Shown here one piece after another: positions 57,661-59,047 of a stretch of DNA of 64,000 nt. Under the pieces are notes generated by a model, which saw nothing but the letters and a program-made list of their open reading frames with translations, was not told the origin of the DNA and made no database searches. The position numbers and the translations under genes are program-made. Source of the DNA: Saccharomonospora sp. NB11 (GTDB lineage: Bacteria > Actinomycetota > Actinomycetes > Mycobacteriales > Pseudonocardiaceae); contig NZ_JACBJG010000002.1 of the NCBI RefSeq assembly GCF_015910535.1, forward strand, positions 372,001-436,000, written 5' to 3'. Within the stretch, counting starts at the first letter, position 1. Every line of letters starts with the position of its first letter.

Positions 57661-57690
57661 TTGCCGCACCCGACATCGTGCGCCTAGCGT
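57661..57690 (+). promoter_or_regulatory. candidate promoter of the structured leader
   Basis: TTGCCG (57661-57666) and TAGCGT (57685-57690) are separated by 18 bases, a good vegetative promoter for this genome. Transcription would start near 57697, about 25 bases before a short reading frame with an exceptionally strong ribosome-binding site. Confidence 0.55.
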
Positions 57691-57702
57691 GGCGATTACA
57701 CG

Positions 57703-57718
57703 AGAAGGGAGGTGGTCC
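57703..57718 (+). promoter_or_regulatory. 16-base extended Shine-Dalgarno sequence
   Basis: AGAAGGGAGGTGGTCC can pair along its whole length with the 3' end of 16S rRNA (14 Watson-Crick pairs and two G-U pairs). No other site in the window is nearly as complete. It precedes the GTG of a 12-codon frame. Confidence 0.75.
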
Positions 57719-57722
57719 AACG

Positions 57723-57761
57723 GTGAATATCCACAGGACTCGTGAGGTGGCTGTCCGCTGA
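57723..57761 (+). CDS. 12-residue leader peptide upstream of pyrD
   Basis: GTG to TGA encodes VNIHRTREVAVR. It uses AAT, AGG, ACT, CGT and GCT, codons avoided in neighbouring genes, which suggests that the nucleotide sequence or the codon speed is constrained. The extended Shine-Dalgarno 4 bases upstream indicates strong translation or ribosome holding. Its last codons (57746-57751, GGTGGC) can pair with downstream GCCACC (57774-57779). I do not recognise the peptide; three arginines are notable. Confidence 0.55.
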   Translation: MNIHRTREVAVR

Positions 57762-57895
57762 CAGCGCACACGGGCCACCCAGTTGACGCGTGTGCCTGTC
57801 GGTGAATACCAGGCAGTCACCGGCCCCCAGTGTTCCCGGGAACCGGTCCGTCCCGGGCCCGAGCGGCTGACGACGTTCGGGAGTCGCACTGGGGG
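57746..57895 (+). ncRNA. structured RNA leader between nei2 and pyrD
   Basis: Several complementary segments follow the short frame. GGTGGC (57746-57751) can pair with GCCACC (57774-57779), which itself lies in the loop of GCACACG/CGTGTGC (57766-57772, 57789-57795), so the helices compete or form a pseudoknot. A 9-bp perfect pair CCCCCAGTG/CACTGGGGG (57824-57832, 57887-57895) closes a large domain followed by a pyrimidine run. The order of short frame, alternating helices and closing hairpin resembles a translation-coupled attenuator or small RNA. No known riboswitch class is recognised. Confidence 0.5.
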
Positions 57896-57982
57896 CTTCT
57901 CCCTGTTCAGGGGCCGTCACAGTGCTCGACCGGCCGCCCTCCCGGCCGCTGCGGACGAGAACCGTGTCGGATACTGGGTGCC

Positions 57983-59047
57983 GTGCTCTTCGACAGGATC
58001 GTCCGTCCCGCCCTCTACCGGCTGCACCGCCACGACGCCGAAGCCGTGCACGAACGCACGGTGCGGGTGCTCGAACGAGTGAGCTCGGTCGACCGGCTGA
58101 CCACCGCACTGCGCCGCCACTACCGGGTCGACGACCCCTGCACGGTGTTCGGCGTCCGCTTCCCCAACCGGCTCGGGCTCGCTGCGGGCATGGACAAGGA
58201 CGGTCGTGCCCTGCAAGCCTGGTCGGCGCTCGGGTTCGGGTTCGTGGAGGTCGGCACGGTGACCCGGCACGCCCAGCCCGGCAACCCCCGCCCTCGGTTG
58301 TTCACCCTCGACGCCAGTGACGCCGTGCTCAACCGCATGGGGTTTAACAACGCCGGGGCCGCCGCGCTCGCCGAGCGACTCTCCAGGACCGGCAAGCCCG
58401 ACGTCCCCCTCGGCATCAGCATCGGCAAGTCGAAGATCACGCCCGTCGAGGACGCCATCGCCGACTACCGCGACTCGCTCGTCACGCTCTCGCCATACGC
58501 CGACTACGTGGCCGTCAACGTCAGCTCCCCCAACACACCCGGACTGCGGACGCTGCAGGACCGTGGTGCGCTCACCGAGCTGCTCGCCGAGTTGTCCCGC
58601 ACCTCGAAGGAGCTCGCCGCGACGAGTGGACGCGGGCGAGTGCCGCTGCTCGTGAAGATCGCTCCCGACCTGACCTTCGACGCCATCTCCGAACTGCTCG
58701 GGGTGTGCCTCGACCACGACGTCGCCGGGCTCATCGCCACCAACACGACCCTGTCCCGCGACGGACTCGCACCCCAGGACGCTCGCTTCGCTGCCGAACA
58801 GGGCGGGTTGTCCGGCCGCCCACTCGCCGCGCGGTCGCGCGAGGTCGTGCGATTCGTCCACGAGCAGGTGGGCGACTCCCTGCCGATCATCGGCGTCGGC
58901 GGCATCGGCAGCCCGGACGACGCGCTGCGGATGCTCGACGCGGGCGCGAGCCTGTTGCAGATCTTCAGCGCGTTCGCGCTGCACGGGCCCGCCGTGGTGC
59001 GACGGATCAACTCCCGGCTCGCGCAGCGGCAGGCCGCACCGCGCTGA
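57983..59047 (+). CDS. pyrD: dihydroorotate dehydrogenase (quinone), class 2
   Basis: This 354-residue membrane-associated flavoenzyme oxidises dihydroorotate to orotate in pyrimidine synthesis. The N-terminal amphipathic helices precede [19 protein letters not shown], the catalytic-Ser segment [11 protein letters not shown] and [11 protein letters not shown]. The GTG has no clear Shine-Dalgarno but lies exactly 7 bases after GATACT, so it may have its own leaderless promoter besides the structured leader. Its 3' end overlaps the opposite-strand gene by 41 bases. Confidence 0.95.

Follow-up and report, generated by a model that had tools for sequence, protein, structure and literature searches.

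The 64,000-nucleotide stretch of Saccharomonospora sp. NB11 DNA analyzed here (the window) contains a separate small RNA gene of Ms_IGR-5, a poorly understood actinobacterial sRNA family. By comparison with homologs, we established its family membership, selection on a 12-codon reading frame, and a fold comprising a helix between the 5' end and the frame (P0), a second helix (P2), a pseudoknot, and a 3' hairpin. The comparison of relatives suggests that a tiny coding frame is built into the RNA's own fold, and a ribosome would probably have to unfold the RNA to translate it. The reading that we prefer, with a probability of about 0.45, is a regulatory RNA operated by the ribosome, which would act in trans or via its own stability and not on the downstream gene. 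The features are as follows.

57661..57690 (+), promoter-like sequence (-35 TTGCCG, 57661-57666; -10 TAGCGT, 57685-57690), from the sequence and a positional consensus
57698..57903 (+), small RNA RF02471 (Ms_IGR-5), cmscan score of 94.3 bits against a gathering score of 45
57699..57702 (+), 5' strand of P0, CACG, partner of CGUG at 57741-57744 (codons 7-8), with compensatory changes
57703..57718 (+), entry Shine-Dalgarno (SD) sequence, able to pair over 16 bases with the 3' end of the host 16S rRNA, from the host tail and duplex energy
57723..57761 (+), 12-codon frame MNIHRTREVAVR, GTG start and TGA stop, kept in 156 of 158 homologs
57736..57740 (+), 5' strand of the pseudoknot, GGACU (codons 5-6), pairing with 57845-57849, with covariation of the end pair
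57741..57744 (+), 3' strand of P0, CGUG, with compensatory changes
57744..57749 (+), internal SD-like GAGGUG, ending 6 nt before the last sense codon
57746..57755 (+), 5' strand of P2, GGUGGCUGUC (codons 8-11), covarying with 57812-57821
57812..57821 (+), 3' strand of P2, GGCAGUCACC, covarying with 57746-57755
57823..57896 (+), terminator-like 3' hairpin, then UUCUCCC; 9 of 10 counted pairs changed on both sides, 99.1% of cells paired
57845..57849 (+), 3' strand of the pseudoknot, GGUCC in the apical loop of the 3' hairpin, from covariation and column-pair rank
57970..57985 (+), GATACT N7 GTG, putative leaderless promoter and pyrD start, outside the RNA, with the box found in loci with pyrD

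Family, promoter, and gene neighborhood

The RNA matched the RF02471 model over its entire length (positions 1 to 184 of 184). A preliminary description, made from the letters of this interval, had treated it as an uncharacterized leader with no known feature, which was incorrect since the interval is a named Rfam family. Its statement that no riboswitch or T-box was recognizable held true: RF02471 was the sole Rfam match in the window to reach its gathering score. The promoter, SD sequence, frame, helices, and pyrimidine run that it had pointed out were all present in the sequence.

Of 197 genomes sampled from the class, 131 had an RF02471 match (above the cut-off in 130), as did 29 of 41 genomes among relatives of the window, and some matches may have been lost to the strict filters used in both searches. 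Counted otherwise, the class sample had a match in 119 of 173 good-quality genomes and in 58 of 91 genera. All but one of the 131 class genomes had a single match; in the relatives sample, a second, weak match, below the cut-off, was seen in one genome. Genome G124 carries two copies of the RNA (L178 and L268), with the frame present in both. A pattern scan of named genomes gave at least 120 matching stretches, and the genera among the matches listed included Mycobacterium, Amycolatopsis, Micromonospora, Nocardioides, Cellulomonas, Blastococcus, Kribbella, and others. Viral copies of the RNA were rejected, as the exact pattern matched nothing among the viral contigs of the collection scanned.

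Upstream of the RNA, TTGCCG is followed by 18 nt, TAGCGT, and a further 7 nt before position 57698. We compared this region in 158 homologs, the window's included, that were picked by the Rfam model with no motif filter (sets A3 and A4; one spurious short match and a repeat of L009 were left out, and 22 rows also served to train the alignment model R1 described below). A partial consensus was found at the same distances from the first RNA base, consisting of A-rich sequence near -43, TT near -36, a TANNNT-like box from -13 to -8, and G at -2. The promoter, previously called plausible, is present as a promoter-like sequence, with the partial consensus equally spaced in the homologs. From this promoter and a conserved ACAC, the 5' end of the RNA is probably at or near 57698, and we infer that the RNA is transcribed in Saccharomonospora sp. 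NB11. The A-rich stretch upstream of the 158 homologs, from -45 to -41, lies 5' of the -35 region; such a stretch perhaps resembles the UP element of strong promoters. At the other end, the conserved stem pairs of the 3' hairpin include 57823-57828 with 57891-57896, and UUCUCCC follows directly at 57897-57903. The predicted fold contained this hairpin, whose basal stem is long, in agreement with the closing stem and pyrimidine run noted before. The 322-nt interval of the preliminary description folded better than all of 100 shuffled versions (z = -3.78).

The genes around the RNA vary. Many mycobacterial loci have a class IV aminotransferase gene on one side of the RNA and a convergent THAP4-type gene on the other, Micromonosporaceae often have a metallo-beta-lactamase-fold gene close to it, and fpg and pyrD flank it in the genus of the window. 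According to gene calls that are heuristic and not curated annotation, the next called gene was on the opposite strand at 71 of the 136 pattern-matching loci that have such a gene (9 others lack one) and at 87 of 141 pattern-free loci, a further 17 having none. Of 243 anchored loci, 23 had a pyrD match near the RNA (one of these repeats the window locus), at 246 to 2470 nt from the SD sequence, and more distant pyrD genes could have been missed because about half of the 243 loci had only 1 to 1.5 kb of flank, the rest varying. The named loci with pyrD were from Amycolatopsis, Prauserella, Actinokineospora, and Actinophytocola, which we take to be Pseudonocardiaceae.

In the window, pyrD spans 57983-59047 (Pfam DHO_dh, 264 bits). 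Directly before its GTG, 19 of the 23 rows had a box (GATACT in 12 and CAGCAT in 7). Judged by sequence, pyrD appears to be leaderless and the box is retained in relatives in which pyrD is close, in line with the GATACT-N7-GTG arrangement proposed earlier. A translation-coupled attenuator for pyrD, one of two alternatives in the preliminary description, would fit the gene order in the window and in relatives from its genus and family, where pyrD follows the RNA on the same strand. However, homologs do not always precede pyrD, the downstream gene is frequently on the other strand, and pyrD has a box of its own adjoining its GTG. Because the neighbors vary and 87 of 141 loci have their next gene on the other strand, attenuation of pyrD is not the general function of the RNA, and we rejected this reading, which is highly improbable, on synteny and on the box. 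The other alternative, an independent small RNA or peptide gene, was borne out by the promoter-like sequence, the terminator-like hairpin, the class-wide occurrence, and the changing neighborhoods. With a variable neighborhood and pyrD in few loci, the RNA looks like a gene of its own.

Expression of Ms_IGR-5 as an sRNA is reported for Streptomyces lividans and S. avermitilis in parts of PMC8079986 and PMC8780764, respectively. In M. smegmatis, IGR-5 overlaps the transcript ncMSMEG15794c, according to sections of PMC10454040 in which Li et al. (2013) are cited for the original description of the family. IGR-5 is not named in the searched parts of PMC3774663 and PMC5521070. The S. lividans and S. 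avermitilis transcriptome papers, the sRNA class assigned by Rfam, and the changing neighborhood would also suit a structured, trans-acting sRNA of the ordinary kind, in which the frame is translated only as a side feature, minor or protective. We consider this doubtful in view of a frame kept in nearly all homologs together with a near-invariant SD sequence, both described next.

The reading frame and its ribosome-binding sequences

The earlier claim of a 16-base complement to the 16S 3' end was confirmed with the host's own 16S tail: all 16 bases of the SD sequence pair with it, through 14 Watson-Crick and 2 G-U pairs, and the predicted duplex energy was -29.6 kcal/mol, versus -11.6 kcal/mol for a plain AAAGGAGG. 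The idea that this sequence is a rare motif in the genome was rejected, for its 11-base core (GGAGGTGRTCC) had 14 genome matches, one of which was the 16S gene, versus 12 for the reversed control. The weight of the SD sequence rests therefore on its near invariance in homologs. The distance from GGAGG to the start codon was 15 nt in 46 frames, 16 in 78, 17 in 28, 18 in 2, and 19 in 2.

The 12-codon frame, likewise proposed before, runs from GTG to TGA in the window, and an in-frame start and stop were found in 156 of the 158 motif-free homologs. The start codon was TTG in 68, ATG in 61, GTG in 27, and CTG in none; the stop codon was TAG in 134, TGA in 18, and TAA in 4. The frames were 12 codons long in 146 homologs, 13 in 9, and 11 in 1. 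In these figures, L026 and L029 were counted from an inner ATG, and starting from the TTG one codon earlier would better give 12 codons for L026 and 13 for L029. One of the two exceptions, L025, has ATC at the start position; the other, L279, has an in-frame ATG one codon upstream of the range scanned, which would make a frame of 14 codons. The length between start and stop thus changed by whole codons only. Since the distance to the start shifts by single bases and the frame by whole codons, we read this as selection for translation, and the start, the frame, and the stop appear to be under selection. A previous set of 145 loci also had the frame in 143 (L025 and L133 lacked a start), a count that we do not use as support for codons 5 to 10 because the pattern by which these loci were matched fixes parts of those codons. 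Two divergent forms were seen. A subgroup of six loci (L264, L269, L271, L272, L274, and L275) has a 13-codon frame of the type MVDHSWASEVAVR, with AGC where most carry CGT. The copy in L029 (1501-1659, minus strand) has GTAT for ACAC, one extra codon, GAGGAGG for GAGGTGG, and a rebuilt P2.

A frame, start, and stop under selection could also mean a functional 12-residue peptide, roughly M-x-x-x-R/W-T-R/C-E-V-A/T-A/V-R, with the fold serving its expression. Among the 146 frames of 12 codons, Ser at codon 3 was written both as AGY (48) and as TCN (21), which speaks for this view. On the other hand, residues 2 and 4 vary widely, and pairing accounts for much of the conservation of residues. At codon 2, the third base is kept (84% T) and the first two vary; codon 7 switches its residue in step with its P0 partner; and 145 of the 146 frames have GTG at codon 9 and none has GTC, the only other codon being that of the shifted L029. 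The patterns at codons 2, 7, and 9 indicate that selection is not mainly on the peptide. Peptide function as the main driver is disfavored by these codons and by the GAG GTG pair, for which no synonyms are used, and seems rather improbable.

GAG GTG forms the internal SD-like motif near the stop. GAGGUG was found in 155 of the 156 frames, with a gap to the last sense codon of 6 nt in 154 and 9 nt in 1; the sole frame without it was L029, which carries GAGGAGG. The A of GAGGUG is in no described helix, so pairing fails to explain its conservation, and an SD-like contact with the ribosome at the stop would explain it. Ribosome reads have been reported on MS_IGR-5 homologs in M. abscessus and M. 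smegmatis in sections of PMC4974804, where it is also cautioned from eukaryotic data that ribosome reads on sRNAs may come from RNPs and need not mean translation. The 16-base complementarity, the internal motif at fixed spacing, and these reads could all be accounted for by an RNA that sequesters ribosomes, in which the strong SD sequence and the SD-like motif at the stop would park ribosomes or 30S subunits and thereby tune the free pool or provide storage. We regard this as unlikely. Such a decoy would demand a very high abundance of the RNA and would not need a pseudoknot, P0, and P2 with compensatory changes, and the 11-base SD core is about as frequent in the genome as its reversed control.

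Pairing of the frame with the rest of the RNA

The fold was derived with RNAalifold on 22 sequences, which gave P1 (GUCC:GGAC), P2, and the 3' hairpin, and the resulting model, R1, was used to align the other sequences. The helices of the preliminary description were present in this predicted fold: P1 as GGUCC:GGAC, P2 as GGUGGCUGUC:GGCAGUCACC, and the 3' hairpin with its long basal stem. P0 and the pseudoknot were found by inspection of alignment columns and are absent from both the Rfam consensus and the RNAalifold fold. As R1 includes P1 and neither P0 nor the pseudoknot, the alignments were not built on the latter two.

Across homologs, P0 pairs CACR at the 5' end of the RNA with YGUG of codons 7-8, and compensatory changes were seen in the 158 homologs and in 100 sequences of A3. 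One pair was C-G in 154 of the 158, U-A in 3, and G-C in 1; the adjacent pair was A-U in 132, G-C in 10, G-U in 4, U-A in 1, C-G in 1, and another combination in 10. The outermost pair was standard in 131 of 158, compared with a mean of 113.4 and a highest value of 122 in 2000 shuffles that ignored relatedness (no species tree was used), and it was non-standard in 13 of 96 sequences of A3. Within family f33 (15 genomes of one genus), TTC/GAA, CGA/TCG, and GTA/TAC each replaced ACG/CGT in one genome.

The pseudoknot, in its general form, has GGACN (codons 5-6) as one strand and N'GUCC, from the 3' hairpin loop, as the other. Its end pair was G-C in 43 homologs, U-A in 35, U-G in 28, A-U in 13, C-G in 2, and G-U in 2, and hence standard in 123 of 158, versus a mean of 68 and a highest value of 86 in 2000 shuffles of the same kind. 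Among family majorities (ties were settled by order), the end pair was standard in 25 of 37 and unpaired in 12, the shuffled mean being 15.5 and none of 5000 shuffles being as high; it was non-standard in 19 of 100 sequences. At the next pair, U-A replaced C-G in 4 of 100.

In P2, 5 of 10 pairs were changed on both sides and 96.6% of the cells were paired among 100 homologs. Taking P0, the pseudoknot, P2, and the 3' hairpin together, 97.3% of the cells paired and 19 of 29 pairs were changed on both sides, while sliding the partners by 1 to 3 columns left 36 to 45% of the cells paired. Among 6441 column pairs in A3, ranked without regard to relatedness, the pseudoknot pair came 12th and the two rankable pairs of P0 came 97th and 124th; in the pattern-selected set (6105 column pairs, ranked likewise), the outer pair of P0 came 10th and the pseudoknot pair 37th. 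A stretch just 5' of the 3' strand of P2, at 57801-57810, is also conserved (GGTGAATACC in the window and roughly GGCGAATNCC in homologs) and belongs to no counted helix.

The preliminary description had two helices compete for the end of the frame. P2 gained support from covariation. The pairing of the SD tail with GGAC (P1) gained little, and GGAC covaries instead with the loop of the 3' hairpin. P1 had one pair with changes on both sides, in 3 cells, and ranked 3407th of 6441 (relatedness was ignored here as well); on these grounds, it was rejected as the main partner of GGAC. Some covariation speaks for P1, its score having been reached by only 3 of 500 shuffles, though the double change also moves the SD sequence closer to the 16S complement. 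For the window RNA, the predicted energy was -113.0 kcal/mol with P1 versus -107.5 kcal/mol with P0, the pseudoknot not being counted, and P1 may be a second state of the RNA. The helix that Rfam draws between the SD region and codons 10-11, which would sequester the SD sequence, found no support in covariation; 93.5% of its cells paired in 100 homologs, as they did in shuffles, and no change on both sides occurred. Loss of the frame or helices outside the window, which the preliminary description had named as counting against its proposal, was not what we found, for both are kept well beyond the window's family.

A proposed ribosome-operated RNA and known systems

We propose the following course of events for a ribosome-operated RNA. 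An independently transcribed RNA of about 206 nt would close by pairing its own short frame: the pseudoknot would join codons 5-6 to the 3' hairpin loop, P0 would tie the 5' end to codons 7-8, and P2 would take up codons 8-11, with the SD sequence and start codon sitting in a loop closed by P0. A ribosome would load through the 16-base pairing of its 16S tail with the SD sequence. At initiation, the size of the ribosome footprint places the leading edge at about frame base 14, where it would meet the pseudoknot, which begins at this base in 12-codon members. The pseudoknot, P0, and P2 would then all have to open for the frame to be translated. Once the ribosome is at the stop codon, the gap between GAGGUG and the P site corresponds to a usual SD distance, and this SD-like motif may hold the ribosome there. 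The RNA would alternate between two states, one closed and free of ribosomes, the other open, occupied by a ribosome, and with its 5' end and GGCAGUCACC free. The unwinding, the pausing at the stop, and a regulatory output by target pairing or RNA stability are what we infer from this arrangement. More tentatively, the family could be a class-wide RNA machine in which the coding sequence doubles as a strand of P0, the pseudoknot, and P2. The ribosome would be loaded by the 16-base site and held at the stop by a second SD sequence, and ribosome traffic, not a metabolite, would set both state and output.

A named family present in about two-thirds of the sampled class genomes thus appears to have a conserved, translated frame and a fold unlike that in the catalog, and Ms_IGR-5 clearly exemplifies codons conserved for RNA structure. 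If the ribosome-operated reading is true, Ms_IGR-5 would be a widespread RNA whose input is translation itself. What Ms_IGR-5 does is now a question testable with a few mutants. A description of its frame or pseudoknot was not found in the literature searched, the scope of which did not include the original paper of Li et al. (2013); as far as these searches show, the conserved frame, the codon-built fold (P0, pseudoknot, and P2), and the GAGGUG at fixed spacing are new.

Compared with the Rfam entry, the window RNA is alike in being a full-length, intergenic match with its own 3' hairpin. The entry differs in listing an sRNA without a frame and in its consensus, where no pseudoknot is marked and codons 10-11 are the partner of the SD region. 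Ms1 and 6C RNA are conserved actinobacterial sRNAs of mycobacteria and resemble RF02471 in this respect, but they are other families. Leader-peptide attenuators of the trp and erm types combine a short frame, a strong SD sequence, helices involving codons, and a terminator-like hairpin, all of which are found in RF02471. In contrast to them, RF02471 has no conserved downstream gene or operon, its neighbors and their strands being variable, and no antiterminator was noticed in it, without a systematic search. SgrS, RNAIII, and rnTrpL, which are dual-function sRNAs or released leader-peptide sRNAs, resemble the window RNA in that a single transcript is both the carrier of a short frame and a structured RNA with a stability of its own. 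Unlike these, the window RNA has varying neighbors and no run of regulatory codons, and its codons form one strand in three of the four counted helices.
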